A DNA stretch of 64,000 nucleotides, taken from positions 1 through 64,000 of the forward strand of contig BAYV01000002.1 in the NCBI GenBank assembly GCA_000710935.1, given 5' to 3'. Under the pieces are notes generated by a model. The model ran no database searches, had not been told where the DNA came from, and worked only from the letters and a program-made list of their open reading frames with translations. The DNA is from Iodidimonas nitroreducens. GTDB taxonomy: Bacteria > Pseudomonadota > Alphaproteobacteria > Sphingomonadales > Rhodothalassiaceae. The position numbers were made by a program, and so were the translations under genes. Of this stretch, positions 19,457 through 43,973 are shown piece after piece (the first letter of the stretch is position 1; every line of letters begins with the position of its first letter).

Positions 19457-19457
19457 C

Positions 19458-20672: not shown

Positions 20673-21281
20673 ATGATGATCAGGGCGCTGGCTTTGCTGG
20701 CTGTTTGTTTGGTGGCGGCTTGCGCCAGCAAAAGCACATTGCCTCCGGTAAATAGTAATGCACCGGCGCTGGATGCGCCGCTTTATCGCATCGGCCCGGG
20801 CGATTCTCTCAATATTTTTGTATGGCGCAATCCGGATCTGGCCAGCAATGCGCTGGTTCGTCCCGATGGGCGCATCACTTTGCCCTTGATCGATGATCTG
20901 GAAGCGGCCGGCAAAACCCCCACGGAACTCGCACGCGACATCGAGGGCGCTTTAAGTGTTTTTGTGCAAGACCCATTGGTAACCGTGATGGTGACCGGTT
21001 TTGTGGGCACATTCGAGCAACAGGTGCGGGTTGTGGGGGCAGCGGTCAATCCATCAGCCATTCCCTATCGTGCCAATATGACCCTGCTTGATGTAATGAT
21101 CGCCGTGGGCGGGCTGACCGAATTTGCCGCTGGTAACAGGGCCACCCTGGTGCGCTGGGTGGATGGCGAGCAAAAAGAATATCGTGTGCGGCTCGATAGC
21201 CTTTTGAAATCAGGAAATATCAAAGCCAATACAATGGTTTTGCCGGGGGATATTCTGATCATCCCGGAAACTTTCCTGTGA
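20673..21281 (+). CDS. XrtA-system exopolysaccharide export lipoprotein (Wza-like)
   Basis: This 202-residue lipoprotein has a lipobox near residue 16 (LVAAC). The polysaccharide export domain is YRIGPGDSLNIFVWRNPDL with the motif VRPDGRITLPLID. One SLBB-type domain follows, ending in VLPGDILIIPETFL. Such proteins form the periplasmic/outer-membrane conduit for exopolysaccharide. This one is short and has no C-terminal membrane-spanning helix, as is usual for exosortase-linked members. AAGGGA precedes the ATG; a second ATG directly follows. It is the first gene of the main operon and is clearly paralogous to the N-terminal third of the protein at 34655-36694. Confidence 0.9.
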   Translation: MMIRALALLAVCLVAACASKSTLPPVNSNAPALDAPLYRIGPGDSLNIFVWRNPDLASNALVRPDGRITLPLIDDLEAAGKTPTELARDIEGALSVFVQDPLVTVMVTGFVGTFEQQVRVVGAAVNPSAIPYRANMTLLDVMIAVGGLTEFAAGNRATLVRWVDGEQKEYRVRLDSLLKSGNIKANTMVLPGDILIIPETFL

Positions 21282-21351
21282 TCAGGGGCTTCACCTGCAC
21301 CACCATGGGCATCTTTTATCTGTTTCTCATTTTTGATGGGCTTTATTGCAA

Positions 21352-23040
21352 GTGAACGAAATCTATCAACAGCTTTTATTTTATCTGGGTGCGCTTTGGC
21401 GGCGGCGCTGGATGATCTTTGCGATTGCCGCCATGATCGCGGGCCTTGGCTGGGCGGGTGTTTCTTCCTTGCCCAATGAATATCGTTCATCGGCTAAAAT
21501 CTATGTGGATACGGCGACGATTTTAAGCCCCTTGCTGGCAGGCGTTGCGGTTGAAGAAAATGTGGATCGGCAGATCGAGATCATGCGCCGAACCCTGTTG
21601 AGCCGGCCCAATATCGAGCAGTTGGCCAGAATGACCGATATGGATATCGAGGCCAGCACCCCGGCGGGGCTGGAGGTGATGCTCGATCAACTGGAAAAAA
21701 GAATATCTCTGACTGCGCAAAGAGATAATCTTTTTGATATCAGCTATGTTGATCGCTCCCCGCAGCGGGCGCGGGATGTGGTGCAGGCGCTGACCACTTT
21801 ATTTGTTGAAAATAATCTGGGGCGCAATCGCGCCGATATGGATAATGCACAGGGCTTTCTGGATCGGCAGATTACCGATTATGAAAAAAAGCTCAATGAG
21901 GCTGAGGAAGCTCTGGCGCAGTTTCAGCAGGAAAATGCGGCTTTTCTGCCCGGCCAAACCGGCTTGCAAAGCAATCTGGCTGATGCCCGGGGCAATTTGT
22001 CGAGCCTTTTGGGTCAGCTTCAGGATACCGAAGCGCGGCAAAGGCTTTTGGAGAGGGAACTGGCCGAAACACCCCAGATTTTGGGGCAAACTTCGGGCGG
22101 AATGGGGCCGCCAACCAATTTGGAAGTGCAAATCATTGATCTGCAAAGTCGGCTTGAGGAACTGGAATCACGCTATACGAGCGAGCACCCTGATGTTGTG
22201 GTGATGCGGCGAAGGCTTGAAGCGATGATGCGCCAGCATGCGGCTTTTGTTGATAATTTCGGGCAAAGCGATGATTTGCGCTCGGGTCCCGCCGCCAATA
22301 CTGTGACCATCCCCAATCCTGTTTATGCCGATTTGCGTATGGAATTGGTGCGCGAGCGTTCGAATGCCGAAACACTGCGCGAAAAGGTTAATCGGGCCCG
22401 GCAGGCGGTGAATGATCTGGAACAAAAAGTTTTCCAGGTGCCGGAAGTGGAAGCGCAGATGAAGCGCTTGACCCGGGATTATGATGTGATCCAGAAAAAT
22501 TATGAAACCCTGCTGGCGCGGAGGGAATCGGCGCGGATTTCTTCGGATCGCGAGCAGGCGGGCAGCCGCGTGAATTTTCGCATTATCGAAGCGGCTTCTG
22601 TCCCGCTTATGCCCAGCGGTCCACCCCGGGCCTTGTTTTTGGGGGCGATCCTAATGATGAGCTTTGTTGCCGGGAGTGCCGTGGCTTGGCTATTGGCTGT
22701 TGCACGGGTCACTTATGGCAGTGTTGATCATTTAAAGCGGGATTTTGATTTTCCCGTCATCGGCTTTCTCACCGTTGTTGGCCATGATGATCCGGGTAAG
22801 GGCATTAAGGATAAAATAAGCCTTGGGATTTCATTATCTGTATTGTTATCAGTCTTTATTGGGCTTTTATATATAGAAAGCCGTTATGGTATCCCGATGC
22901 ATCAGATGTTGGCTTATGGCTTATGTCTATTCGTTTTCATATTCGGGCTGATTATATTGGTGATTGATCGTTTGCGCCCTTCATTATTCAGGAGTTCGCC
23001 CATGATCACTTCCTTTGATTTGAATGCAAGGCAAGCATGA
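21352..23040 (+). CDS. XrtA-system polysaccharide chain-length determinant (Wzz/GumC-like)
   Basis: This 562-residue inner-membrane protein is predicted to set polymer length and work with the tyrosine kinase that follows. A first membrane segment (WMIFAIAAMIAGLGWAGVSS) leads into the Wzz domain (NEYRSSAKIYVDTATILSPL). A long periplasmic coiled coil (about 170-420) comes next, then PxxP-like PLMPSGPPRALFLGAILMMS and a second membrane span near 435. Two further hydrophobic segments near the C-terminus are typical of the exosortase-locus subfamily. The start could be GTG 21352 or TTG 21346; no strong ribosome-binding site decides. I chose GTG because it gives the family-like MNEIYQQ opening. 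Confidence 0.88.
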   Translation: MNEIYQQLLFYLGALWRRRWMIFAIAAMIAGLGWAGVSSLPNEYRSSAKIYVDTATILSPLLAGVAVEENVDRQIEIMRRTLLSRPNIEQLARMTDMDIEASTPAGLEVMLDQLEKRISLTAQRDNLFDISYVDRSPQRARDVVQALTTLFVENNLGRNRADMDNAQGFLDRQITDYEKKLNEAEEALAQFQQENAAFLPGQTGLQSNLADARGNLSSLLGQLQDTEARQRLLERELAETPQILGQTSGGMGPPTNLEVQIIDLQSRLEELESRYTSEHPDVVVMRRRLEAMMRQHAAFVDNFGQSDDLRSGPAANTVTIPNPVYADLRMELVRERSNAETLREKVNRARQAVNDLEQKVFQVPEVEAQMKRLTRDYDVIQKNYETLLARRESARISSDREQAGSRVNFRIIEAASVPLMPSGPPRALFLGAILMMSFVAGSAVAWLLAVARVTYGSVDHLKRDFDFPVIGFLTVVGHDDPGKGIKDKISLGISLSVLLSVFIGLLYIESRYGIPMHQMLAYGLCLFVFIFGLIILVIDRLRPSLFRSSPMITSFDLNARQA

Positions 23041-24126: not shown

Positions 24127-25269
24127 ATGTATCTTGATTATTATGGATTGAAGCGGCACCCCTTTCAACTGACACCGGATGTCAATTTCTTCTATGATAG
24201 CCGGGTCCATAAGCGGGCGATGGCTACCATCAGCTATGGCTTGAGCAAGCTTGAAGGTTTTGTCATCGTCACCGGCGATGTGGGGGCGGGCAAGACGACG
24301 CTGATCGATTATCTTTTGAAAAACGGTCAACTCAAAAATGTTGTAGTGGCCCGGATCAGCACCACTCAGCTTGAGGCGGAAAATCTTCTGGAATTGATTG
24401 CCAGCGAACTGAATTTGCGCAAAAGCGGGGCGAGCAAGGCTTCTTATCTGCGCGATCTGAACAGTTTTTTTCTGCGTTTGGGGCAGGCGGGGAAATCGGT
24501 TCTGCTGATTGTTGACGAGGTGCAAAATCTGTCAGCCGGTGCTCTTGAAGAACTGCGGATGCTTTCAAATTTTCAAAATAATGAGAAGCCGCTGGTGCAG
24601 CAATTGCTGGTGGGCCAGCCGGAATTTCGCAGCCGTTTGGCCAGCCCGGCTTGCGAGCAGATCAGGCAAAGGGTGATCGCATCCTATCATCTGGCGCCCC
24701 TGACCGCTGAAGACGTGCCGATTTATATCGCCCATCGGATGCAGCAGGCGGGGGTTCGCGATCAAAGCCTGTTCACCTATGGGGCCTGTCAGCGCATTTT
24801 TGCTGAAACCGGCGGTGTTCCGCGCAAAATCAACCGCTTATGTGATCGCTTGTTGCTTTATGGATTTCTTGAGGAACTGACCAGGATCACTTGCTCTGCC
24901 GTTGATGATGTAACGGCGGAAATGCGGGGGGAAAATCTTATGGATGCTGTGGCCGCCCCCCCCGAGCAACCGAAGCCGATCAGCTTGGCGGCGCCTCAGG
25001 CACCTTTACCGGCTTTAGCGGATCAGCAGGATATTTTGGATCTGCCGCTCACCGGCGATAGCGGCCTTGCCCTTTTGGCGGAGCCGATGAACCGGCAAGG
25101 GGCATCAAACGCGCCACAGGTGCGGCAGGATCTGGCATCGCAAATGAGCCAGCATCAGGCGCTTTTGCAGCATATGGGGCGGCTGCGGCGAAAAATGGAT
25201 CTCCATAAATCACGATTGTCACGCTTGAAGCTGATGCTGGGCCAGCAGACAAAGAATCGTGGGGTTTGA
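24127..25269 (+). CDS. XrtA-associated AAA ATPase (ExeA/GspA-like)
   Basis: This 380-residue cytoplasmic ATPase belongs to the ExeA-like group typical of exosortase loci. It opens MYLDYYGLKRHPFQLTPDVN. Walker A is GDVGAGKTTLIDYLL near residue 55, Walker B is SVLLIVDEVQNL, and sensor regions include NEKPLVQQLLVGQPEF and GVPRKINRLCDRLLL. The last about 110 residues are proline- and glutamine-rich, ending in a basic helix. GGGAGGA precedes the ATG. It is thought to serve export or assembly, but its exact step is unknown. Confidence 0.9.
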   Translation: MYLDYYGLKRHPFQLTPDVNFFYDSRVHKRAMATISYGLSKLEGFVIVTGDVGAGKTTLIDYLLKNGQLKNVVVARISTTQLEAENLLELIASELNLRKSGASKASYLRDLNSFFLRLGQAGKSVLLIVDEVQNLSAGALEELRMLSNFQNNEKPLVQQLLVGQPEFRSRLASPACEQIRQRVIASYHLAPLTAEDVPIYIAHRMQQAGVRDQSLFTYGACQRIFAETGGVPRKINRLCDRLLLYGFLEELTRITCSAVDDVTAEMRGENLMDAVAAPPEQPKPISLAAPQAPLPALADQQDILDLPLTGDSGLALLAEPMNRQGASNAPQVRQDLASQMSQHQALLQHMGRLRRKMDLHKSRLSRLKLMLGQQTKNRGV

Positions 25270-27285: not shown

Positions 27286-28905
27286 ATGGATAAGGTGCGC
27301 AATCATCCCCGGCAGATTGCCGTCCTCATCTGTGGGCTGGCGATCCTTTTGCTTGGCCTTGTCTTTCATCAAACGCTGATGAGCATGGTTTTGATCTGGC
27401 TTAATTCCAGCACTTATGGCCATGGGCTTTTGATCGCCCCCATATCCCTTTATCTGATCTGGAACAATCGTCACCGGCTGGCAGCCCTGCCGATCAAGGC
27501 ATCATTTTGGGGGTTGGTGTGGCTGTTGGGCGCGGCCTTGCTCTGGCTTTTGGGGGATATGGCACAGATCAATCTGATCAGCCATTTTGCCCTTGTCGCC
27601 TTCATCCCCGGCCTTGTGCTGGCGATTTTGGGTCTGCCCATGGCTCGGGCCCTGATTTTTCCTTTGGGCTATCTCTTTTTCATGGTGCCCTTCGGCGATT
27701 TTGCCATTGCCCCCTTACAGGATCTGACCGCCCATTATACCGCCATTCTGGTGCGGTGGACCGGTATCCCGATCTATCATGAAAATTGGACATTGGTGAT
27801 CCCCGGCGGCACCTTTCTGGTGGCCGAAGCCTGCGCCGGGGTGCGTTTTCTGATCGCCTGTGTGGCTTTGGGGGCTTTGATCGCGGGCACCTTCCTCAAG
27901 CGCTGGTGGAAGCGTGTTGTTTTTCTGACTTTGGCTATCGCGGTTCCCATCATTGCCAATGTGGTGCGGGCCTATGGTATTGTTCTGGTTGCACATTACA
28001 GCAATTTTGAACATGCCGTGGGCGTTGACCATCTGATTTATGGCTTTGTTTTCCTCAGCTTTGTGATGCTGATCCTCATTCTGGCAGCATGGTGGATGCG
28101 CGATGTGGGGCCTGATGCTCTTTTTGCTGCCCCTCGCGCCGATAGCGATACGGCTGATCTGAAAAGCTCAGCCCTTTCCCGCCCTGATCTGATGCCTATC
28201 GGTGCCGCCGCAACTCTGGCGCTGCTGATGGCTTTGGGGGTGCGGTTTTATAGCCACCATGCTTTGCAGATTGCGCCCGCGCCCCTCGTGCAGCTTTATG
28301 CCCCGGAGGGATTTGCCGGGCCGGGTGGCTGGACTTTTCTGGGCAAGGCCGAGGCGGGCGATTGGGTGGGTGATTTTTCCGCTGCTGATGCACAGGAAAC
28401 CTGGGTTTATGCCAAGGGTGACACGCGCTTTTCGGTGTTCATGGCTTTTTATGGCGATCAGGGGCCGGAAAAGGAAATCATATCCTATCGCAATGATCTG
28501 ATCGGCCCCCAGGCCTTGGATGTGGTGCAGGTGGGGGTGACTAAGCCCGATTTCATGGGGCCAGATCTGCCACCCGCCAATCTTATGCGCCTGTCCGGGC
28601 CCGATGGTCAGCGCCTTGTGTGGTATTGGTATATTCTGCCATCCGATGCCACGGCGAACCGCTCATCCGTTAAATTAAAGGGTTTGTGGGCTAAATTCCG
28701 GGGGGCGCGGGCCCCGGCGATGGTGCTGGCCATTTCGGCCCCCGGGCTTCAACTGGCTGATGAACAAGGCCGTTTGCAGGATTTTCTGCGCAGCACGGGT
28801 TTTGATGAAACACTGCAAAAAGGCGGCTTTGCCCCATGGGTGGCGCGCCATGAGATGATCACAGGAAAGAACGCAGATGTGCGGAATAGCAGGCATATTC
28901 GATAG
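27286..28905 (+). CDS. xrtA: Exosortase A with C-terminal EpsI domain
   Basis: This 539-residue multi-spanning inner-membrane transpeptidase-like protease recognises PEP-CTERM signals. The catalytic residues are visible: Cys183 in VAEACAGVRFL, Arg228 in NVVRAYGIVLVAH and His249 in GVDHLIYGFVF. There are at least eight hydrophobic segments up to about residue 270. Another span near 305 leads into a periplasmic EpsI domain with SYRNDLIGPQ and LVWYWYILPS. This layout is typical of the exopolysaccharide-linked XrtA. Likely substrates in this window are the proteins at 1420 and 16429. The gene overlaps the next one by 29 bases. Confidence 0.96.
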   Translation: MDKVRNHPRQIAVLICGLAILLLGLVFHQTLMSMVLIWLNSSTYGHGLLIAPISLYLIWNNRHRLAALPIKASFWGLVWLLGAALLWLLGDMAQINLISHFALVAFIPGLVLAILGLPMARALIFPLGYLFFMVPFGDFAIAPLQDLTAHYTAILVRWTGIPIYHENWTLVIPGGTFLVAEACAGVRFLIACVALGALIAGTFLKRWWKRVVFLTLAIAVPIIANVVRAYGIVLVAHYSNFEHAVGVDHLIYGFVFLSFVMLILILAAWWMRDVGPDALFAAPRADSDTADLKSSALSRPDLMPIGAAATLALLMALGVRFYSHHALQIAPAPLVQLYAPEGFAGPGGWTFLGKAEAGDWVGDFSAADAQETWVYAKGDTRFSVFMAFYGDQGPEKEIISYRNDLIGPQALDVVQVGVTKPDFMGPDLPPANLMRLSGPDGQRLVWYWYILPSDATANRSSVKLKGLWAKFRGARAPAMVLAISAPGLQLADEQGRLQDFLRSTGFDETLQKGGFAPWVARHEMITGKNADVRNSRHIR

Positions 28906-30817: not shown

Positions 30818-30940
30818 TTGAGATATTCGTGATTGAATGAACATGAAATCTCATTTTGATCGGTATTTTTATGTTAAATGAAATTTAAAAATAAACAGAT
30901 ATAGATGCACATTCAGAATGAATAATTGTTCGGGGGAACG

Positions 30941-32314
30941 ATGTCTGTCACAAATAGTAATAAACCATTAATTTTTATGGCACTTCTAGAGTGCCTGATC
31001 ATTTATGGATGCTTTTTGGCGAGCGTTTTCATTCATGATAATAATTTATTTTCTAATGATATTATAAGAATAAGTGTTGGAATTATAAGTATCTGTATCA
31101 TAATTGGTACGGTTATGTTTTCTGTTGGATTATATAACTGGAAAATATCAACCGGTTATTCCGATATCGCTGTTAGAATAATCTCTTCATTTGTTATTGG
31201 TTATCTGACCTATGTTACTTTTGTTTATGTGATCAGCTATATCCGGCTGCCGCCAACCGTTATTTTGTTCGGGATGTTCTTTTCCCTCGTTGGTATTTTG
31301 ATCCTTCGCCTCATTTTTGTTCGGCTTACCAAATGGTCCAATCTGAAAAGCCGGGTTCTGGTTCTGGGCACCGGCAAGCAGGCGGCGCGGATCGTGCAAT
31401 TAGAGCAGCTTGGCCATGCCAGCCGTTTTGTGACCACGGGCTTCGTTAATCTGGAATCCGTGAAGCCACGGGTGGATCAAAATCGCATTATTGATATGCC
31501 CGATGATCTGGCGGATTATGCCCTGAAACAGGATGTGGATGAAGTGGTGGTGGCGCTGGAAGAGCGCCGTGGCCAAGTGCCTCTGGCCCCCCTGATCAAT
31601 ACCCGCCTGCGGGGCGTGAGTGTGACCGATTATCAAACTTTTTGCGAACGGGTGCAGGGCCGGATCGATCTCGATGCCCTGCGGCCAAGCTGGTTTTTTC
31701 AATCCGATGGCTTTCGCCGCAGCGGCTTTCACCGGCTGATCAAACGGACGGTCGATATTGTGCTCAGCCTTGTTTTGTTGATCTTCACGATGCCGCTTTT
31801 GCTTTTGACCATGATTTTGATCCGCCTTGAAAGCCCGGGCGGAGCCTTTTATGTGCAAGAGCGCGTGGGTCTGGGCGGTAAGCCGTTTACTTTGGTCAAA
31901 TTCCGCTCCATGCGCAATGATGCGGAAAAAAATGGCGAAGCGCAATGGGCACAAAAAGGCGATGCCCGGGTCACCCGGATCGGGGCCCTGATCCGCAAAA
32001 GCCGGATCGATGAAATCCCGCAGGTGATCAATGTTTTGAAAGGCGATATGAGCTTTGTGGGACCGCGCCCCGAACGTCCGGTTTTTGTTGATCTTCTGGC
32101 GGCGGAAATTCCCTTTTATCAGGAACGCCACAGCGTACGCCCGGGGATCACCGGTTGGGCGCAGCTCAATTATCCTTATGGTGCCTCGGCCGAGGATGCC
32201 CGGCAAAAGCTGCAATATGATCTTTATTACATCAAATATTTCAGCATCATCTTCGATCTTTCCATTGTTTTGCAAACCTTCCGCGTGGTGATCTGGTCTG
32301 ATGGCGCGCGCTAA
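30941..32314 (+). CDS. XrtA-system undecaprenyl-phosphate sugar phosphotransferase
   Basis: This 457-residue membrane enzyme likely primes repeat-unit synthesis by moving a sugar-1-phosphate to undecaprenyl phosphate. Four N-terminal hydrophobic segments (about 1-130) precede a Rossmann-like domain (SRVLVLGTGKQAARIVQLEQ). The catalytic domain follows with KRTVDIVLSLVLLIFTMPLL, then FTLVKFRSMR, IRKSRIDEIPQVINVLKGDM, FVGPRPERP and RPGITGWAQL. CGGGGGAACG lies directly before the ATG. The first about 300 bases of coding DNA and the 123 bases before it are much more AT-rich than the rest of the operon. Confidence 0.92.
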   Translation: MSVTNSNKPLIFMALLECLIIYGCFLASVFIHDNNLFSNDIIRISVGIISICIIIGTVMFSVGLYNWKISTGYSDIAVRIISSFVIGYLTYVTFVYVISYIRLPPTVILFGMFFSLVGILILRLIFVRLTKWSNLKSRVLVLGTGKQAARIVQLEQLGHASRFVTTGFVNLESVKPRVDQNRIIDMPDDLADYALKQDVDEVVVALEERRGQVPLAPLINTRLRGVSVTDYQTFCERVQGRIDLDALRPSWFFQSDGFRRSGFHRLIKRTVDIVLSLVLLIFTMPLLLLTMILIRLESPGGAFYVQERVGLGGKPFTLVKFRSMRNDAEKNGEAQWAQKGDARVTRIGALIRKSRIDEIPQVINVLKGDMSFVGPRPERPVFVDLLAAEIPFYQERHSVRPGITGWAQLNYPYGASAEDARQKLQYDLYYIKYFSIIFDLSIVLQTFRVVIWSDGAR

Positions 32315-33473
32315 GCCCAAAAGCGTGTCGCGCATGGGTGGCACGTCAAAAATCCTGCATATTTTCCCTACATTTGCCCCCGGCGGGGTGCAATTGCGGA
32401 TTATCAGGCTGATCGAACGATTGGAGGCTGGCCGCTATCAGCATCAGATATTGGCGCTGGATCAGAATTATCGTGCCGCCGCTCATGCCCCCAATCTCCC
32501 TGATCTCGATTTTTATGAGCAGGATCAAAGCCCCTTAAAGGATGTAACATTATCGGGGCTTTCCGGCCTGATGCAGCGCCGCCGGGCTTTGGCAAAGGTT
32601 GGCCCCGATCTTTTATGCACCTATAATTGGGGGGCGATGGATTGGGCAATGGCGGCCCGTTTTGGCCCCTTGCCGCATCTGCATTTTGAAAGCGGCTTTG
32701 GCCCGGATGAGGCCATCAAGCCTTTGCGGCGGCGCTCTTTGTTTCGGCAATTTGCCCTGGCTCGGATCAAGGCGCTTGTGGTGCCATCACAAACTTTGGT
32801 TGAGATAGCCAACCGCCATCATTGGGTGGCCCCCAAAAAAATTCGCCATATCCCCAATGCGGTTGATTGCCAATGGTACCAGCCCGGCGAAAAGCCTGAA
32901 AGGGTGGCGGATGACAATCTGGAATTGCTGACCATCGCACCCCTGCGCGCAGAAAAACGGCTGGATCGGCTGATCGATCATTTTGCCCCCCTTGTCCATA
33001 TCAATCCCCGGGTCCGCCTGACGATTTTGGGGGAAGGGCCGTGCCGCCCGGCTTTGGAAGCCCAAATTGCGGAACTGGGTGTGGGCCATCGGATCGCGCT
33101 TCATGGCCATGTCACCGATATTCGCCCGGCCCTCAATCGCGCCGATCTGTTTTTGATGACCTCGATCACCGAACAAATGCCCAATGCGCTTTTGCAGGCC
33201 ATGGCGGCGGGGCTGCCGGTTCTGGCTTTTGCGGCGGGGGATATCGCCGCCATTCTGCCGCCCAAGGCACGCTTTTTGGTTTTTGCCCAAAATGATGATG
33301 CGGGCTTTGGTAAAGCCTTGCTTGATCTGGCCCAAAATCCATCCCTGCGTCATGATCTGGGCGCAGAGAACCGGCGCCGGGTGGTGGCGCATTATGATCT
33401 GGATATCATGGTCGCGGCCTATGATGCCCTTTATCAACAGGCCTTGGCGCTTCAGGCTTTGGATGTCTCATGA
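32301..33473 (+). CDS. XrtA-system GT4-family glycosyltransferase
   Basis: This 390-residue cytoplasmic glycosyltransferase has the GT-B fold. N-terminal domain: ILHIFPTFAPGGVQLRIIRL. Donor-binding domain: LTIAPLRAEKRLDRLIDHFA, VRLTILGEGPCRPALEAQIA, then IALHGHVTDIRPALNRADLF and ITEQMPNALLQAMAAGLPVL, which carries the Ex7E-type acidic residues. It overlaps the end of the priming transferase gene by 14 bases; an internal ATG at 32334 is an alternative start. The sugar is unknown. Confidence 0.88.
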   Translation: MARAKPKSVSRMGGTSKILHIFPTFAPGGVQLRIIRLIERLEAGRYQHQILALDQNYRAAAHAPNLPDLDFYEQDQSPLKDVTLSGLSGLMQRRRALAKVGPDLLCTYNWGAMDWAMAARFGPLPHLHFESGFGPDEAIKPLRRRSLFRQFALARIKALVVPSQTLVEIANRHHWVAPKKIRHIPNAVDCQWYQPGEKPERVADDNLELLTIAPLRAEKRLDRLIDHFAPLVHINPRVRLTILGEGPCRPALEAQIAELGVGHRIALHGHVTDIRPALNRADLFLMTSITEQMPNALLQAMAAGLPVLAFAAGDIAAILPPKARFLVFAQNDDAGFGKALLDLAQNPSLRHDLGAENRRRVVAHYDLDIMVAAYDALYQQALALQALDVS

Positions 33474-34660
33474 AACTTCTTGTTTTCTCAACATTATTTC
33501 CCAATCCCCAGCAGCCCCATCACGGGATTTTTGTGGAAAACCGCCTGCGTCATCTGCGCGAAGACAGCGGCTATGAAGCCCATGTGCTGGCCCCTGTGCC
33601 ATGGTTTCCGAGTGCCTCGCCGCATTTTGGCACTTATGCCGATTATGCCAAAATCCCTAGGCATGATGAGCGCCATGGCCTGATGATCAACCATCCGCGT
33701 TATCTGGTGATCCCCAAAATCGGCATGTTGGTCACCCCTTTCAGTCTTTATCTGGCGGCCCGCCCGGTGGTGGCACGGCTTTTGGCCGAAGGGCATCGCT
33801 TTGATCTGATGGATGCGCATTATTTTTATCCCGATGGGGTGGCCGCCGCCCTTCTGGCGCGGGAATTTGATCTGCCTTTCACCATCACCGGGAGGGGCAC
33901 CGATCTCAATCTGATCCCGCGTCATGCTTTGCCACGCCGATTGATCCGCTTTGCCGCCAATAAAGCCGATGGGCTGATCACGGTTTGTGCTGCCTTGGCC
34001 GATGATCTGGCCGCTATCGGTGTGCCGCGCGATCGGGTGACGGTGCTGCGCAATGGGGTCGATCTCAAAGCCTTTCAAAGGGATGAGGCCGGGGCCCTGG
34101 CCCTGCGCCAAAAGCTGGGCATCAAAGATGGGCCGGTGCTTTTATCGGTGGGGCATTTGATCGAACGCAAAGCCCATGATCTGGTGATCGGGGCGCTGGC
34201 GGCATTGGGGCGCGGGCATCTGATCATTGCCGGAAAGGGGCCACAGGAAAAATATCTGAAGGATCTGGCGCAATCCTTGGGGCTTGCGGATCGGGTACAT
34301 TTTCTGGGTCTGGTGCCGCATCATGATTTATCGTCCGTTTATAGCGCGGCTGATCTTTTCATTCTGGCATCGAGCCGGGAAGGCTGGCCCAATGTTTTGC
34401 TGGAAAGCATGGCCTGCGGAACGCCGGTGGTGGCCACCGCAGTCAATGGCTCGCCCGAAGTGGTGACAAAGCCGGTTGCTGGGCGCATCGTTGCCGAACG
34501 CAGCGGCCAGGCCCTTGCTGCAGCGGCTGAAGATATATTGAACGATCCGCCATCGCCTGAGGCCGTGCGCGCCTATGCGGAAGATTTTTCATGGCAGGCC
34601 ACGAGCCTCGGGCAGATGGCGCTGTTCAATTCGATCCTGGAAGCCAGGAAAAACTCATAA
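33470..34660 (+). CDS. XrtA-system GT4-family glycosyltransferase
   Basis: This 396-residue GT-B glycosyltransferase opens with MKLLVFSTLFPNPQQPHHGI. Further segments are LPFTITGRGTDLNLIPRHAL in the acceptor half, VTVLRNGVDLKAF at the hinge, VGHLIERKAHDLVIGALAAL and the donor-site motif SSREGWPNVLLESMACGTPV. Its ATG overlaps the previous stop codon (ATGA). It is the last gene of the main rightward operon and its 3' end overlaps the convergent gene at 34655 by six bases, so the operon probably ends by convergence. Confidence 0.88.
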   Translation: MKLLVFSTLFPNPQQPHHGIFVENRLRHLREDSGYEAHVLAPVPWFPSASPHFGTYADYAKIPRHDERHGLMINHPRYLVIPKIGMLVTPFSLYLAARPVVARLLAEGHRFDLMDAHYFYPDGVAAALLAREFDLPFTITGRGTDLNLIPRHALPRRLIRFAANKADGLITVCAALADDLAAIGVPRDRVTVLRNGVDLKAFQRDEAGALALRQKLGIKDGPVLLSVGHLIERKAHDLVIGALAALGRGHLIIAGKGPQEKYLKDLAQSLGLADRVHFLGLVPHHDLSSVYSAADLFILASSREGWPNVLLESMACGTPVVATAVNGSPEVVTKPVAGRIVAERSGQALAAAAEDILNDPPSPEAVRAYAEDFSWQATSLGQMALFNSILEARKNS

Positions 34661-36694
34661 TCTGAGCCGCGCCGAGAGGGTGACGGTGTTTTCCGTGAAA
34701 TCCTGAATGCCAAGGGATGAATCGCGGGTGGAAAAACCATAGCTGAGCGAGATGAGCAGGCGTTCAAAGCCGGTATAATCAAGGCCTGCAGTGGCCCGAT
34801 AATCACGATCTTCGCGCGGCAGCGTGCCCCCCAAAAGGGCTGCGGAAAAATCCCGCTCGGTGAAGCTGCCCGATGCCCGCGCGGTGAAATGGCGGCTCAA
34901 GGGCTGTGATAGATTGATCCGGGCGATCAGACTTTCCTCATTCGTCGTGCCGGTATTGAGATTGATTTCATTGCGCTGCCAGCTTCCGGTCAGCACAAAA
35001 AACAGGTTGGCAAGCTGGCCGCTAAGATTGAGGCTGGCGGTTTCATTTTTCGTTGAATTATTGCGCAGGGAAAAGGGCAGGTCGGGGGGCAGGGTGGGAT
35101 CGACCGCCCCCGGGGTGCCGGGCAGATTATCAAGCAGGCGTTCCTGATCGATCCGTACATTTTCATTGAAACTGGCGGTGAATTGCAGGTCCTGGCCGAT
35201 CATCTTAAGGAAAGTGGCATTGAAGGCGGTATTGCCGTCCCGCTGGCCAGCGGTAAATTCAAAAGACGTGCGATCACTGGGTTGCCAGCGAAAGCCCGCC
35301 ATATAAAGGGGATCATCGATTTCGCGATCAAATGTCTGGCCGGTGAATTTTTGATAGCCGCCCCGGGCGATCAGGCGAAAGCTCGATGTCAGATCATAGG
35401 TGAGTTCGGCAATGGCATTGGTGCGTTCCCGGTTTTCCCGTTCGCTTTGATCAAAATGCGCAAAACTGCCGGTGAGCGACCAATTGAGCTTTGAACCATT
35501 AACAGGAGAGCGGAGGATCAGGCTGCCCGTGTTTTCCCATGTATCGGTGCCCTGCTGGCCATTGAAAAAGATGGGATTGAGAGGATCGATTTCGGCTTCG
35601 CTGATCAGAACAAGACCGCTTTCATAGCGCAGTTCCATCGTGGCGAGATCGCCAAGACGATGCCTGAGATACGGGCTGATCTGATAGGTTTGAACCACCT
35701 GCGTATTGGCGATATTGGTGATCGATGAAGATTGTCCGCGACGGGTATCCACAAGTTGACGCGAGATCGAGACGGCGCTATCGAGAAAAAACAGGCGTTC
35801 TATCAATTCGGTATTGAGCGAACCTTGCACTTCGGGGGCAACGGAAAAGCTGTCATCATCATTTGTGCGATGCTGCAGGCGTATTTCGGCATCGAGCAGC
35901 GCCTGCAATCGGGCGGTATCATAATCGATCCGAATGGCGGGGAACAGTTCGCTGACCGCACTGTCGCGTTTCAGATCGCCCGATTGCAGATTGATATTAT
36001 CGCTATAGCTTTGGGCGGCGCCAACCGACATCTCGATCGTTCGGCTGCCCGCAAAAAAGCTTTCCGGCACATAAATGACATCACCGGGCTGCAAAAGCGT
36101 ATCAGCTCCCAAAGCACGCCCCGATTGAATATCGCCAAGGCGCAGACGAATTTTTTGCGTACGGCCATTTTCCGTGCGGATGATTCTGGCGCGATTGGCC
36201 GCCGCCGTTTCCGGAAGGCCGCCGATTTCTGTCAGTACCCCAAGGCTTGTGAGCCCTTGGCGATAAGGCAAAGTGCGCGGGGCGGGGAAGGCATCGCCGA
36301 TGAGGCGGATGCGGTCTTGATAGGTGCTCCCCGCCGCAATCACCATCACCGTGGCCCGGGGTGTGGTCATCAAATCCGAAAGGGCCTGTTCCAGCTTTCG
36401 GGCGATCTGATCGGTGCTAAGGCCAGTGACCACAAGATCACCCAAAAGCGGCAGGGCAATCCGGCCATCGGGGCGCACGCGATACTCTCCGCTCAGATCG
36501 TCCTCGCCATTGATGGTGATCTGCAGGCGATCTTCGGGGCCGATTTTATAGATATAATCCGCTGCCGCATTGCCCGAACCCACAATATCGGGGGCTGTAG
36601 TCTGGATAATCCTGGCCAAGGCGGGGCTTTGGGCGAAGGCCGGATGATGGCTCATCAGCATCGCTAGGGTCAGCGTCCCGGTCAAAAGCCGCAT
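34655..36694 (-). CDS. Fusion of Wza-like polysaccharide export domain with an outer-membrane beta-barrel
   Basis: This is a 679-residue predicted outer-membrane protein. A signal peptidase I type signal (residues 1-21, AFA|QSP) replaces the usual lipobox. Residues 48-125 form a polysaccharide export domain (YKIGPEDRLQITINGEDDLS; VRPDGRIALPLLGDL). An SLBB-like domain runs to about 214 (LLQPGDVIYVPESFF). This part aligns along its length with the stand-alone lipoprotein at 20673. From about 220 onward the sequence is alternating polar/hydrophobic strands (VGAAQSYSDNINL; MELRYESGLVLISE; LIARGGYQKFTG; LSYGFSTRDS) ending VTLSARLRL, like the PEP-CTERM-associated outer-membrane barrel family. I infer a one-polypeptide export channel. 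The start could instead be the ATG at 36784, which would add 30 residues before the signal peptide. Confidence 0.82.
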   Translation of the reverse strand: MRLLTGTLTLAMLMSHHPAFAQSPALARIIQTTAPDIVGSGNAAADYIYKIGPEDRLQITINGEDDLSGEYRVRPDGRIALPLLGDLVVTGLSTDQIARKLEQALSDLMTTPRATVMVIAAGSTYQDRIRLIGDAFPAPRTLPYRQGLTSLGVLTEIGGLPETAAANRARIIRTENGRTQKIRLRLGDIQSGRALGADTLLQPGDVIYVPESFFAGSRTIEMSVGAAQSYSDNINLQSGDLKRDSAVSELFPAIRIDYDTARLQALLDAEIRLQHRTNDDDSFSVAPEVQGSLNTELIERLFFLDSAVSISRQLVDTRRGQSSSITNIANTQVVQTYQISPYLRHRLGDLATMELRYESGLVLISEAEIDPLNPIFFNGQQGTDTWENTGSLILRSPVNGSKLNWSLTGSFAHFDQSERENRERTNAIAELTYDLTSSFRLIARGGYQKFTGQTFDREIDDPLYMAGFRWQPSDRTSFEFTAGQRDGNTAFNATFLKMIGQDLQFTASFNENVRIDQERLLDNLPGTPGAVDPTLPPDLPFSLRNNSTKNETASLNLSGQLANLFFVLTGSWQRNEINLNTGTTNEESLIARINLSQPLSRHFTARASGSFTERDFSAALLGGTLPREDRDYRATAGLDYTGFERLLISLSYGFSTRDSSLGIQDFTENTVTLSARLRL

Positions 36695-36864
36695 GGGGTT
36701 TCCAATTTTGCGATGGCCCCGCTTTAACGCTGGCCCTTTGGCACTATGCTGTGATGGTCTGCCCGTGCTGAAATAATGAGCCATATAAAGATCGTTCCCC
36801 CCTTGCCCTTGATTCCACTGTTCCCTTAAGGTGAATTTTAACCTGATTCAACGCGCGGTCAAAC

Positions 36865-38025
36865 ATGCGAATTCTTTATCACCACAGAATATTGGCTGCC
36901 GATGGAATGCAGGTGCATATCAAGGAGCTGGTGGGGGCCTTGAAACGCCGCGATCATCGGATCGATATGGTGGGCCCAAAGGCGCAAAAAACCGATGGGG
37001 GCCGCAGTCTTACAGGCTTTTTGGGCGATGCCCGGGCCCATATGCCTGCGGCTTTCAATGAAATGCTGGAGGCCGGTTATAATCTCAAAGCCTATCGGCA
37101 GCTTTTGCACAGCGCCCGCGCGCATCAGCCCGATATTCTTTATGAACGCTATAATGCCTTTTTACTGGCGGGCTTATGGGCGAAGCGGTCTTTGGGGATT
37201 CCTTATCTGATCGAGGTGAACGCCCCTTTGTGCCATGAACGCAGCCTTTTGGGCAATCTGGCTTTGAAGGGGCCGGCCCGGCGGATGGAGCGGGCGGTGT
37301 GGCAAGGCGCCGATGCGGTTTTGCCGGTCAGCGATGCCCTGGCCGATTATGTGCGCCGCGAACAGGTGCCCGATGATCGGATCACGGTTATCCCCAATGG
37401 CGTGCGGACCGAATTGTTCCAATCTGTGCGCCGCGGCAGCCTGCGCCGGGAGATGGGTTTTGCTGACAAGATCGTGTTTGGCTTTGTGGGCTATGTGCGG
37501 GAATGGCATGGCCTTGATCAGGTGCTCCATGCCTTTGCCCGCTTGGCCGATCCGGCGCTGCATTTTCTGATCATTGGCGAAGGACCGGCCAGTGCGGGCC
37601 TCAAAGCCATTGCCAGCGAACTTGGGATCGGCCATCAACTCACCTTCACCGGTGCCCGCCCCCATGAAGACATTCCGGCGCTTTTGGGGGTGATGGATAT
37701 TGCCTTGCAGCCTGATGTGAATGATTATGCCTCGCCCTTGAAATTATTCGAATATCTGGCCGCAGGCTGCGCCATCATTGCCCCCGATCGCCCCAATATC
37801 CGGGAAATTCTGGATGATGGCAAAACCGCGCTTCTGATCGATCCCGATCACCCCGATGATCTGAGCCGGGCCATCACAGCCCTTGCCACCGATTTTGATC
37901 TGCGCAAAAAACTGGGGGCGGCGGCTTGTGATCTGATCGGGAGGCGTGACTATACATGGGATGGCAATGCCCGGAAGGTGGAAGCCATCGCCGAAAAGCT
38001 CTTGGCGCGTGGGGCCGCTATTTAG
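36865..38025 (+). CDS. GT4-family glycosyltransferase
   Basis: This 386-residue GT-B glycosyltransferase has the acceptor half MRILYHHRILAADGMQVHIK and ILYERYNAFLLAGLWAKRSL. The hinge is RITVIPNGVRTELF, and the donor half has GFVGYVREWHGLDQVLHAFA, then LHFLIIGEGPASAGLKAIAS and DVNDYASPLKLFEYLAAGCA. It stands alone, divergent from the fusion gene across about 170 bases and converging on the ligase gene, which it overlaps by eight bases. The sugar is unknown. Confidence 0.87.
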   Translation: MRILYHHRILAADGMQVHIKELVGALKRRDHRIDMVGPKAQKTDGGRSLTGFLGDARAHMPAAFNEMLEAGYNLKAYRQLLHSARAHQPDILYERYNAFLLAGLWAKRSLGIPYLIEVNAPLCHERSLLGNLALKGPARRMERAVWQGADAVLPVSDALADYVRREQVPDDRITVIPNGVRTELFQSVRRGSLRREMGFADKIVFGFVGYVREWHGLDQVLHAFARLADPALHFLIIGEGPASAGLKAIASELGIGHQLTFTGARPHEDIPALLGVMDIALQPDVNDYASPLKLFEYLAAGCAIIAPDRPNIREILDDGKTALLIDPDHPDDLSRAITALATDFDLRKKLGAAACDLIGRRDYTWDGNARKVEAIAEKLLARGAAI

Positions 38026-39397
38026 TCGGGGCCTTGATCTGTGAACTTAAGGGCGGTCGTGATCGGAAAGGCCGGGAAATCGCCGGTCGTCGGGTGCCTT
38101 GCGCCTTGAGGGCGGGGTTTTGCGAAAGGCTGCTTGCGGAGGCTGCATCGGTTTTCGCCAGTTTTTGCGTGACCATGGAAAGGGCGGCGGCCAAGGCAAT
38201 GACCGTGTAGATATGATCAAAATAAGCAAGGCTCAAAAAAGCACCAGAAACCATATAGCCGATGAGGGATGCTTGCCCCATCTGGCCCAGATCGGCAGCC
38301 CATTTCATATCGGGCCTCATTTCGCCCAGTTTTTTGGCGCGGGCAAAAGATCGCCATGCCGCCCATAAAAGGCCTAAAAACAGCCCCAGCCCCACAAAGC
38401 CATGATCGCCCAAAACTTCGAAATAAATGCTGTGAATGGCGCGTGGCATGGCAGCATCGGGCACCAGACGCATGAACAGATCGCTATCATAATAGGGCCT
38501 GAAGCCCCCCCCGGTGATGGGCCGTTCGATGGCCAGCCTGCTTGCAAAAATCCAGGCATCGATGCGCCCCATGGCCGAGGCATCCTGATCATATTCCTTG
38601 ATCGTTTCCATTCGCTCCACCCATTGCTGGGGCACGAAAAAAATCAAAACACTGCCCAAAGCCAGCGCCAAAGCAATGAAGGCGGCGCGCTGACGGGATT
38701 TCCAGACAAGGGCAATGGCAATCGCCACCAGCCCTAAAAATCCACCGCGCGATGTGGTGCCGATGATGGCAAAGCTGGTCATCACCATGGTGGCCAGGAT
38801 GCCGATCCTGATCCATTTTTCCTCCGATTGCAGATGCAGATAGCGCATCAGGGGCAGGGTCATCACAAAAACCAGAGCCAGGGCGTTATTGTCGTTGATG
38901 AAGCTTTCCGGGGGGCCATAGGCATGATGGCCGCCGGCGGTGAGAATGGTGGGAATGCCGCTGCGAATCCCCAAAACGCCAACCGATAAAACCAGCACCC
39001 AAACAAGGGCGTGGATGCGCTCGCGGCTGGTCACGAGGGCGATGGTGATCAGAGCCATAAAAAATGTTTTGAGCGTACGTTCCCAATACACCCATGCCAC
39101 ATCGGGAACCTGAGCAAAAAAACTGGTGAAGGTCACCCAAAAGGCCAGAGCCAGCAGGATCGCCGTGGGGGCGGTGATCGTCAGTTTTTTGGGCTCTTTC
39201 GATACCAGCCACGCCAAAAGGGTGAGACCGCTTAAAAACATGGCGAAAGGCAGGCTATAGGCGACCCCATAAACCAAACGATGCGGATTGAGCAAAGAAA
39301 TCCAATGATAGGCATAAACCCCCACGACAGGGGATATGAAGACCAAAGGCACGATGACGAAGAGGCTTGCCAAAAGTAACAGTGAGGAAATCGGCAT
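38018..39397 (-). CDS. O-antigen-ligase-like protein, exosortase A system-associated
   Basis: This 459-residue inner-membrane protein has about eleven hydrophobic segments. The short N-terminal motif SPVVGVYAYHWISLLNPHRL and the internal INDNNALALVFVMTLPLMRY with GTTSRGGFLGLVAIAI are typical of the O-glycosylation-ligase-like proteins seen with exosortase A. The large periplasmic loop containing RIDAWIFASRLAIERPITGG and DAAMPRAIHSIYFEVLGDHG matches WaaL/Wzy-type enzymes. It may transfer glycans onto exported PEP-CTERM proteins or polymerise the repeat unit; sequence cannot separate these. The C-terminal 40 residues are Ser/Arg/Pro-rich. Confidence 0.88.
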   Translation of the reverse strand: MPISSLLLLASLFVIVPLVFISPVVGVYAYHWISLLNPHRLVYGVAYSLPFAMFLSGLTLLAWLVSKEPKKLTITAPTAILLALAFWVTFTSFFAQVPDVAWVYWERTLKTFFMALITIALVTSRERIHALVWVLVLSVGVLGIRSGIPTILTAGGHHAYGPPESFINDNNALALVFVMTLPLMRYLHLQSEEKWIRIGILATMVMTSFAIIGTTSRGGFLGLVAIAIALVWKSRQRAAFIALALALGSVLIFFVPQQWVERMETIKEYDQDASAMGRIDAWIFASRLAIERPITGGGFRPYYDSDLFMRLVPDAAMPRAIHSIYFEVLGDHGFVGLGLFLGLLWAAWRSFARAKKLGEMRPDMKWAADLGQMGQASLIGYMVSGAFLSLAYFDHIYTVIALAAALSMVTQKLAKTDAASASSLSQNPALKAQGTRRPAISRPFRSRPPLSSQIKAPTK

Positions 39398-40756: not shown

Positions 40757-41431
40757 ATGACCCGCCCCTTCATATGGCTGCATATCCGAAAAGCCGGCGG
40801 CACCAGCCTGCGCGATGCCTTGGGTGATGCCTATGTGCAGGTGGATCGCTTTGCCACGCCCACGCCTTTTGTGGCGCTTCCGAAAGCTGCATGGAACGAT
40901 AATCTCAATAATTATCGGGTGCCATTGGGGCCTTATGAGTGGAAGCGGATGTTGTTTGCGAAAAAATTCCTCTATAGAGAGGAAGAATTCGACCAGCATT
41001 TCAAATTTGCTATTGTGCGCAATCCTTATGATCGCGCGGTTTCAGCCTGGCGATATCTTTCCAAAAAATGGACCTTCACATGGCCAAGACAGGTGATATC
41101 CCATTATCGTTTCGATCATTTTCTTGAACGCCTGCCGGAATTTTGGGACAAGATCGCTACCGAGCGCCATGTCGCTACCCATACCGCCCCCATCTGGCCG
41201 GATATCACCGATGATGAGGGCAGGCTTTTACTCGATTTTATTGGCCACATAGAAACATTTGATACGGATTTCCAAAGGATCTGCGACGAAATCGGTATTG
41301 CATCCGCCGTCTTGCCCCGGAAAAACAGCCAAGGCGAACGGGATTATAAAAAATTCTATAATCGCCGATCAAAAGCATTGGTTGAACGCTTTTATTGGGA
41401 TGATATCAACGCATTGGGCTATGATTTTTGA
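40757..41431 (+). CDS. Sulfotransferase family protein
   Basis: This 224-residue PAPS-dependent sulfotransferase candidate has its 5'-phosphosulfate loop in FIWLHIRKAGGTSLRDAL, the variant of HIPKTGGTS. The 3'-phosphate-binding segment is KFAIVRNPYDRAVSAWRYLS (RNPYxRxxSxW). GAAGGA lies six bases before the ATG. It follows the putative GT-A transferase in the same transcription unit. The acceptor is probably a sugar hydroxyl in the exopolysaccharide; this is inferred from context. Confidence 0.88.
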   Translation: MTRPFIWLHIRKAGGTSLRDALGDAYVQVDRFATPTPFVALPKAAWNDNLNNYRVPLGPYEWKRMLFAKKFLYREEEFDQHFKFAIVRNPYDRAVSAWRYLSKKWTFTWPRQVISHYRFDHFLERLPEFWDKIATERHVATHTAPIWPDITDDEGRLLLDFIGHIETFDTDFQRICDEIGIASAVLPRKNSQGERDYKKFYNRRSKALVERFYWDDINALGYDF

Positions 41432-41440
41432 GAATTGACC

Positions 41441-42925
41441 CTATTTTTTCGGGTTCTTTCTGCCCAGACGCCTCCCCATCGATTGAAACAGGTTTTTGAT
41501 TTCATGGCGCAAGGGGTGGCGGCACTGCCATAATCCCAAGAGCCAGGCGGCCAGGCCGATCCCCCCAAAAAGGATCAGATTGAGAAGGCTGGAGCCGGGC
41601 GGCGCATAGCCATAAAGCATGACCAGCCCACCCATCACCGATCCCACCCATAAGCTGAGAAGCAGGCTGGGCAAAAGCGTACGAACCAAAGCCCCCATCC
41701 GCAGATCGAGGATCGCCATCACATCCCGCATTGCTAGGATCACAAAAACCAAAGCCGGCAGGATCAGGGCAGCGGTGATCGCCAATAGGCCAAAGGGGGC
41801 TGCCACGATCACCGCAATCACCCGGGTGATCTGCATCTGGGTTTCGATGAAAAAAATCTGCCGCATCCGGCCATGGGCCAGAATCAATTGGCGGCCAATG
41901 CTGAAAGGCATGTGCAGGGTGGAGCTCATGGCCAGAATGCCCGCCACCGGGCCCGCTGCGGTCCATTGCGGGCCGAAAAGAAACAGGATGAGGGAAGATG
42001 AACTGGCGGCCATGATCATCATCAGCGGCCACATCAGCCCCGAGGTGATTTGCAGGCGTTCCAGAAAGCGGGCTTTAAGATCGATTTTATCGCGACGTTC
42101 CTGCGCAAAAAAGGGGGTGAGTACGGTGCTGAGACTGCCAGCGATCTGTTGATTGACAAGGCGGGTGATGGTCATCCCACGATCAAAAAGACCCGCAGCA
42201 TCAAAACCCAAACTGCGACCAATGATCAATTCGGGCGATTGATTGCCCGCACTTTGGATGAGATTGGCAGCCAGCGCCCATGATCCAAAACCAGCAATCT
42301 CGCGCAAGCCGCGAAAACGCGGGCGAAAGCTGAGATGGCGCGGCTTGTAAATGAGAATGCCGATGATCAGGCCCAGCTTCATCACCACAGCCCCCAAGGC
42401 CAAAGCCATTGGCCCTAAACCATAAAAAGCTAGCGCCACCGATGTGATCGCGCTGGCCGCACCGGAGGCGACATTGATGATCGTAAGTCCGCCAAAGCGC
42501 CGTTCGCGCATCAAAAGAGCGATGCCAATGGTGCCAAAGGGATTGAGCAGGAAATTGAGAGACAGGATGGCGATCACATCTTCAATGGCCGCATTGCCAT
42601 AAAAATCGCCAATGGCCCCGCGCCCGAAAAAGAGGATGGCAGCAAAAAGCCAATTAATTGCCAGCATGATGCCAAAGGCTTTTTGTACTGTTTTCCTGCC
42701 CAGATCATCAACTTGGATGAGATAAGGGCTGATGCCGAATTCCGCCATCGCCGTGCTGATGGCAATGGCGGCCGAAGCCACGGCGAAAATGCCCATGTCT
42801 TCGGGTGTTAAAAGCCGGGCAATCGCCGCCGCACTCAGCAACTGAATGAAGGCACGCATGAAACGCCCGCCAAAAACAGTGGCCAAAGAGCGCTTGAGGG
42901 ATGGCCCGGTCGGCGCGCCGCTCAT
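41441..42925 (-). CDS. Oligosaccharide flippase (Wzx-like, MOP superfamily)
   Basis: This 494-residue inner-membrane protein has about twelve to fourteen hydrophobic segments. The typical first helices are AFIQLLSAAAIARLLTPEDM, followed by GIFAVASAAIAI. EIAGFGSWALAANLIQSAGN and SPELIIGRSLGFDAAGLFDR are the usual mid-protein segments of polysaccharide exporters in this superfamily. It is predicted to flip lipid-linked repeat units to the periplasm. The start is immediately before the stop of the upstream sulfotransferase gene, so the two are in one leftward unit. Confidence 0.9.
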   Translation of the reverse strand: MSGAPTGPSLKRSLATVFGGRFMRAFIQLLSAAAIARLLTPEDMGIFAVASAAIAISTAMAEFGISPYLIQVDDLGRKTVQKAFGIMLAINWLFAAILFFGRGAIGDFYGNAAIEDVIAILSLNFLLNPFGTIGIALLMRERRFGGLTIINVASGAASAITSVALAFYGLGPMALALGAVVMKLGLIIGILIYKPRHLSFRPRFRGLREIAGFGSWALAANLIQSAGNQSPELIIGRSLGFDAAGLFDRGMTITRLVNQQIAGSLSTVLTPFFAQERRDKIDLKARFLERLQITSGLMWPLMMIMAASSSSLILFLFGPQWTAAGPVAGILAMSSTLHMPFSIGRQLILAHGRMRQIFFIETQMQITRVIAVIVAAPFGLLAITAALILPALVFVILAMRDVMAILDLRMGALVRTLLPSLLLSLWVGSVMGGLVMLYGYAPPGSSLLNLILFGGIGLAAWLLGLWQCRHPLRHEIKNLFQSMGRRLGRKNPKK

Positions 42926-43963: not shown

Positions 43964-43973
43964 TTCATAGGGC

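Follow-up and report, generated by a model that had tools for sequence, protein, structure and literature searches.

An outer-membrane polysaccharide export domain joined directly to an XrtA-type beta-barrel in Iodidimonas nitroreducens and its relatives

We analysed 64,000 nucleotides of DNA from Iodidimonas nitroreducens (contig BAYV01000002.1, positions 1 to 64,000), which we call the window. On its minus strand, beside an XrtA exopolysaccharide locus, lies a gene whose product combines an outer-membrane polysaccharide export (OPX) domain with an outer-membrane barrel of the TIGR03016 type. The features of this gene, here called the fusion, are as follows.

34655..36694, minus strand: OPX-barrel fusion gene, 679 aa (an alternative ATG at 36784 gives 709 aa)
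36632..36694, minus strand: predicted signal-peptidase-I type signal without lipobox, residues 1-21 of the 679-aa form (from inspection and a lipobox scan)
36053..36565, minus strand: OPX domain D1-D2, residues 44-214; Poly_export at 36341-36565, then an SLBB-like domain
35996..36088, minus strand: joint, residues 203-233, 31 residues, constant in length in 15 of 15 fusions
34658..36049, minus strand: TIGR03016-type outer-membrane barrel, residues 216-679, 22 predicted strands

The reading frame is uninterrupted over 34655-36694. The ATG at 36784 is preceded by a better Shine-Dalgarno-like sequence, AAGGGGGG, than the start of the 679-aa form. Poly_export (PF02563) matches residues 44-118 of the protein with 74.9 bits (Pfam cut-off 28), and a match to SLBB_2 stays below its threshold (23 against 27 bits). 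From residue 219 on, TIGR03016 matches with 161.2 bits against a cut-off of 90.85, in two stretches of which 219-485 is the best, and BBP2_2 matches residues 593-678 (37.1 against 23.7 bits). All eight fusions tested as proteins passed the TIGR03016 cut-off. Neither Wza_C nor GfcC gave a Pfam match in the fusion at E 0.01, and the barrel comes after D2 instead. The OPX part of the fusion is short and lacks D3, D4, Wza_C and GfcC; with the barrel, this is the composition of a composite translocon. It is thus confirmed that the gene encodes a complete D1-D2 OPX domain joined without a linker to a barrel of the PEP-CTERM/XrtA type.

These results agree with an earlier note on this DNA, made from the sequence alone, which had described an OPX part fused to a barrel and had aligned the N-terminal part with the lipoprotein OPX encoded at 20673. 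Residues 31-214 are 38% identical to that stand-alone OPX (P0002) over 184 columns, including the motifs quoted there (BLASTP E 4e-39). The same note had proposed a signal-peptidase-I type signal in place of a lipobox. The N-terminus does resemble such a signal, with HHPAFA before QS (by inspection only), and no lipobox precedes the OPX domain in the window protein. The scan took in all 15 fusions, and its sole match was TVSC in genome G610, upstream of the likely start.

The fusion was found in 15 genomes of two alphaproteobacterial orders, with an identical joint length. In the window's family it occurs in five of seven genomes (G000, which is the window's genome, G020, G026, G013 and G036), and in the second order, which contains Rhodovibrio, in 10 of 61 (G631, G526, G609, G632, G611, G610, G623, G584, G607 and G583). 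A sample of the window's order gave 5 fusions in 196 genomes, all in the window's family. Among the matches listed, two of 385 genomes in the class sample had the fusion (the window's and G526, both in the two orders), as did one of 398 in the phylum sample, namely the window's own genome. No fusion outside the two orders was among the matches listed for these class and phylum samples, which scored at most three candidate places per genome, so that rare fusions could be missed. None of 14 matching plasmid records covers 80% of the fusion query. A scan of named genomes with a single protein as query gave no match. With an alignment as query instead, the best 80 of 130 loci were taken; four of these were fusions and the other 76 were not. 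The fusion gene is whole within its contig in 13 of the 15 genomes, is cut by a contig end in G036 and is split over two contigs in G632.

The orthologue in G026 (locus L060, apparently Iodidimonas muriae) has an in-frame TAG in the barrel at L060:11189-11191, which leaves frames of 448 and 274 codons; the stop may be an error of sequencing or be read through, or the gene may have become a pseudogene recently. Close OPX and barrel matches in G457, G361 and G533 (class sample), as well as those in G578 and G235, proved to be separate adjoining genes, and we do not count them as fusions. In these, the OPX and barrel genes are directly adjacent (L184:7127-9391 in G578, L206:1091-3268 in G457, L207-L209 in G361, G533 and G235). 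In L184 and L206 the two share a reading frame and are separated by a single stop, and such adjacent in-frame genes are a plausible pre-fusion arrangement. OPX and barrel genes were also seen in a Candidatus Heimdallarchaeota metagenome-assembled genome (L089). The barrel there groups with Thermodesulfobacteriales, and the contig is probably mis-binned.

The AlphaFold2 model of the fusion covers residues 22-679 and was made with 57 aligned rows. Its mean pLDDT is 85.2 and its pTM 0.74, and it has D1-D2 and then a barrel region, in keeping with the barrel that the earlier note had expected from about residue 220. In the alignment (A3) the barrel rows had 41-104 residues scattered in the OPX columns, and the model was confident nonetheless. 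A manual count on the DSSP string, with one broken strand taken as one, gave 22 strands following the OPX domain. The barrels of TonB-dependent receptors likewise have 22 strands, those of OccK proteins 18. Residues 196-658 of the model superpose on BtuB (1nqf) with Z 16.6 and a root-mean-square deviation (rmsd) of 4.6 over 366 aligned residues. On OccK2 (4fms) the Z value is tied with that for BtuB, and the rmsd is 5.4 over 313 aligned residues. The top Foldseek match of the whole model is the Class-3 OPX WzaB of M. xanthus (9n9a; E 1.7e-11, 30% identity, rmsd 8.5), followed by Wza chains, outer-membrane barrels and many TonB-dependent receptors. For the D1-D2 fold, comparison with 9n9a gave VIA Z 15.9 with 160 aligned residues and rmsd 8.4, and the profile matches of the OPX domain include 9n9a and Wza chains.

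A second AlphaFold model was made of a stand-alone barrel from Rhizorhabdus histidinilytica (L072:13285-14805), which scores 30 bits on TIGR03016, itself under the cut-off. Its mean pLDDT is 71.9, it has 22 strands by manual count, and the structural matches listed for it are, from their names, presumably TonB-dependent receptors or SusC-type relatives. Thus 22 strands are predicted for two barrels from loci with XrtA-type OPX genes (L072 and window 34658-36049). The partners published for Myxococcus have 18 (PMC9601211; this and the other PMC papers cited below were available to us in part, and our statements refer to those parts), so that the fusion departs from them in strand number. A barrel of 22 rather than 18 strands would mean a wider pore.

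In the joint between the two parts, from PGD (AGD in G632) to the first SDN or TDN of the barrel there are 31 residues in all 15 fusions, and the complete stand-alone OPX proteins of the fusion genomes terminate at the 12th residue from PGD in 14 of 14 cases. From the constant joint and the ends of the stand-alone proteins, it follows that the fusion is an entire OPX unit directly followed by a mature barrel. It looks as if a whole OPX protein replaced the signal peptide of the barrel. As far as can be read from sequence, then, the chain is made up of a complete OPX D1-D2, a constant joint of 31 residues and a complete mature TIGR03016 barrel.

A joint of constant length also suggests a single origin. 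The OPX tree used 67 of 71 rows, G584_OPX, L139, L076 and L103 having been dropped as long or partial; of the 82 OPX-match frames in the best 80 of 130 loci, 34 are among the 71 rows under their own locus names. The fused domains branch apart from the stand-alone ones in this tree, which led us to reject the idea that the fused OPX arose by a recent duplication of the local one. The fused domains form two groups, which were joined in 10% of 200 bootstrap trees, and a single clade was not rejected (approximately unbiased test, p 0.508). The barrel tree, made from 48 rows by a quick method and with several long branches, requires three changes. In it the stand-alone barrels of G588 and G593 nest among the fusions with weak support. 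The barrel tree fits either one origin with later fission or more than one origin, and the constant joint favours one.

The gene content of the fusion genomes indicates which partner the fusion replaced. In all 15, no TIGR03016 gene other than the fusion passes the cut-off and XrtA passes its own, and 14 retain a complete separate OPX with a lipobox. The sister genus has no fusion and an XrtA match under the cut-off (G006 and G031). It carries a stand-alone TIGR03016 gene between a kinase-like and an ATPase-like gene, as identified from the translations of these neighbours, and at this slot the window has a short gap. Since the barrel is missing and the separate OPX is kept, the fusion takes the place of the barrel rather than of the OPX. 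In the window, G020 and G026 some 13 kb separate it from the OPX gene, and in G583, G584, G623 and G631 it is no more than about 20 kb away from xrtA. The other genes of this region in the window are listed below.

20673..21281, plus strand: P0002, stand-alone OPX lipoprotein of the XrtA locus; TIGR03027 230.5 bits (cut-off 180); lipobox VAAC
21346..23040, plus strand: XrtA-system chain-length determinant (PCP), TIGR03007
23053..24063, plus strand: XrtA-associated tyrosine autokinase, TIGR03018
24064..24126, no strand: gap of 63 bp at the slot of the stand-alone barrel gene of the sister genus (G006, G031); barrel slot empty
24127..25269, plus strand: XrtA-associated ATPase, TIGR03015
25266..30817, plus strand: polysaccharide deacetylase, FemAB-like, XrtA (27286-28905) and amidotransferase genes of the same locus
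30926..34660, plus strand: sugar-phosphate transferase (Bac_transf) and two glycosyltransferases
36865..38025, plus strand: glycosyltransferase, divergent from the fusion gene
38018..39397, minus strand: Wzy_C/DUF5935 polymerase- or ligase-like protein
40757-41431, plus strand: sulfotransferase
41441-42925, minus strand: Polysacc_synt_3 flippase
42926-44059, minus strand: sulfotransferase

Judging from these assignments, the window carries what a Wzx/Wzy-type XrtA locus needs, and the fusion gene sits among these genes. Two sulfotransferase-family genes (40757-41431 and 42926-44059) stand beside the flippase gene, and the polymer of the locus may be sulfated. Just before the XrtA locus, at 17423-19690, a 755-aa protein has a ThiF domain and a short nitroreductase-like match. 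Elsewhere in the window's genome there is a second Wzz-type PCP on contig C95. A third Poly_export protein is found on contig C105 (C105:72554-72760, L003), where its open frame of 1024 aa also encodes an SLBB domain.

We think it probable that the fusion is the outer-membrane pore of the exopolysaccharide translocon of the XrtA locus (Wzx/Wzy-type), with a second OPX at its N-terminus replacing the signal peptide of the barrel; the complex and the export we infer. Signal peptidase I would release the protein into the periplasm, the Bam machinery would insert the barrel, and D1-D2 would be held directly beneath the pore. The polymer would then pass from the PCP of the locus to the ring of the separate lipoprotein OPX and out through the barrel. 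In the model published for M. xanthus, a single EpsX barrel sits on an EpsY octamer and is met by the ring of its D2 domains; the complex is supported by AlphaFold-Multimer, mutual stabilisation and pull-down (PMC9601211). The fusion of D2 to the barrel without a linker fits this published geometry.

As a rough geometric estimate, a ring of eight 22-strand barrels in contact would have a radius of about 65 A. Wza is about 105 A across. Eight fusions in one ring would be crowded, and a ring of separate OPX with one fused subunit, or a collar, is therefore favoured. The fused D1-D2 may join the ring of separate OPX proteins as its one barrel-bearing subunit, an arrangement to which we tentatively give somewhat less than an even chance. 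Alternatively, it could form a collar between the ring and the barrel, which we find possible and rather doubtful. Either arrangement would lock the cognate pore to the cognate ring, one pore per ring. A mixed ring, if true, would be a hetero-oligomeric OPX ring in which the symmetry is broken at a defined subunit and the pore stoichiometry is built in. Two tandem OPX frames (about 230 and 205 aa) occur in one locus in Nitrospirales (L085:4459-5800 and L105:8076-9415), and they may point to hetero-oligomeric OPX rings elsewhere.

Several observations weigh against the fusion as the pore of the XrtA translocon. The window protein scores 140.4 bits on TIGR03027, under the equivalog cut-off of 180, which four of the eight fusions tested passed (the eight include the window fusion). 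The structural matches are imperfect, with rmsd values of 8.4-8.5 to 9n9a over both domains and TM-scores of 0.5 or less among the matches listed, and closure of the barrel is deduced from superpositions on solved outer-membrane barrels rather than from coordinates. Weaker TIGR03016 matches to other barrels, under the cut-off, are present in G623 (42 bits) and in G583 and G584 (about 20-22 bits), and these genomes may have a second pore. G584 has only an OPX fragment at a contig end, which is far from XrtA-type OPX in the tree. The fusion and the separate OPX are on different contigs in nine of the 15 genomes (G526, G609, G610, G611, G013, G036, G607, G632 and G584); in genus g311 (G526, G609, G610 and G611) the contigs are large, so the separation is real. 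In addition, complex formation, ring stoichiometry, the path of the polymer and use by the XrtA polymer are all conclusions drawn indirectly.

The rate of divergence bears on whether the fused OPX enters a ring at all. Over ten genome pairs on one tree, which were hand-picked, share branches and are not independent, the fused OPX diverged 2.2-9.5 times as much as the stand-alone OPX; for instance, G000 and G026 are 93% identical in the stand-alone OPX and 62% in the fused domain. At six sites that are invariant in the 14 stand-alone OPX proteins (W62, K92, F121, V129, A146 and I208, numbered as in the window protein), a different residue predominates in the fused domains. Such changes would be expected if the fused OPX joined no ring and served the barrel alone as a gate, plug or collar, or were decaying, and the separate OPX formed rings alone. 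Faster divergence could also mean simply that the fused OPX is decaying, which counts further against the pore reading given above. In contrast, 19 positions, VRPDG included, are invariant across the 15 fused and 14 stand-alone domains, the joint length is fixed in all 15 fusions, and a comparison of 14 of the 15 fused proteins shows D1 to be as well conserved as D2 (mean pairwise identity 49.5% and 48.4%). We therefore consider a fused OPX outside any ring unlikely. The divergence seems to fit an adaptor that still resembles an OPX subunit and has been freed from building a ring of its own.

The earlier note had suggested a self-contained export channel, that is, eight fusion chains forming their own ring, each with a barrel, or one chain that exports without a separate OPX. 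Both modules are indeed in one chain. Nevertheless, the separate OPX is complete in 14 of the 15 fusion genomes and none of the 15 has a separate TIGR03016 barrel over the cut-off, and there is no linker to spread eight barrels to the radius estimated above, so that we give this idea only a slight chance. The further suggestion of a role in exporting a second polymer, one with no connection to the XrtA locus, could draw on the nine genomes with different contigs and on the additional PCP and Poly_export protein of the window's genome (C95 and C105). It would, however, leave the XrtA locus without a TIGR03016 barrel over the cut-off in 15 genomes that all have XrtA, and the window gene lies among glycosyltransferase, polymerase-like and flippase genes of the XrtA region next to a locus without its usual barrel; we regard it as very improbable. 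As for a sequencing or assembly error that joined two genes, the copy with the in-frame TAG shows that not every fusion reads through. The same joint in 15 genomes of two orders, with 13 of the genes whole within contigs, rules such an artefact out for practical purposes. Thus the architecture and the signal described in the earlier note hold and its worry about a sequencing error does not apply, whereas the self-contained channel finds no support and the second polymer is unlikely.

The nearest known systems are EpsY/EpsX, ExoA/ExoB and WzaB/WzpB of Myxococcus and VpsN/VpsM of Vibrio, which have the same short D1-D2 OPX without a membrane helix, plus a barrel, in a Wzx/Wzy-type locus with a PCP (PMC9601211, PMC9603273). 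These composite translocons are encoded by two genes, whereas the window has one chain and keeps a separate OPX besides. Both halves of the fusion match the XrtA/PEP-CTERM models TIGR03027 (OPX) and TIGR03016, and the gene lies in an XrtA locus. Elsewhere (G006 and G031) these are separate genes, and the fused OPX differs in having no lipobox and in forming a branch of its own, or two, separate from the stand-alone OPX proteins of the tree. Wza (Class 1) and KpsD (Class 2) share Poly_export and SLBB-type domains with the fusion. In PgaA and BcsC a periplasmic module, a tetratricopeptide repeat (TPR) domain, is covalently joined to a barrel. Wza and KpsD end in a membrane-spanning helix, and KpsD also has GfcC (PMC9603273); the fusion instead has a complete barrel after D2. 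The synthase-dependent exporters PgaA, BcsC and AlgE likewise export through an outer-membrane barrel (PMC9601211), in a pathway without an OPX ring, unlike that of the fusion.

The earlier note knew of no well-described protein of this design, and the literature searches agree. PMC9603273 sorts OPX proteins into three classes; in its available text an OPX-barrel fusion is not named, and "fused" refers to the GfcD double barrel and to a cloning step. PMC9601211 counts barrels as neighbouring genes and defines short OPX proteins as those of 280 aa or less, so that the 680-aa fusion falls outside its short class; the sole "fused" in the part available concerns a tag. Fusion terms are absent from the available part of PMC11845990. 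In a Sphingomonas, the barrel and the OPX are encoded by separate genes, prmC and prmD, both of which are required for exopolysaccharide (PMC11340318). Among the matches listed for the OPX, TIGR03016 and exosortase literature, titles and the starts of abstracts mentioned no such fusion, with supplementary tables, preprints and most subscription journals outside this scope. The fusion is real, conserved and apparently undescribed, and a variant of the composite OPX/beta-barrel translocon rather than a new kind.

In composite translocons, the route of the polymer between OPX ring and barrel is an open question on which the fusion bears. PMC9603273 sets out several numbered models for this transfer, in some of which the polymer is exposed in the periplasm. 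A natural end-to-end fusion of D2 and barrel, conserved across two orders, argues for direct contact between the two parts. With the lipoprotein OPX also retained, these bacteria are suited to a clean test of the ring-to-pore stoichiometry, and the fusion used as a construct may hold the ring-pore complex together for structural work.

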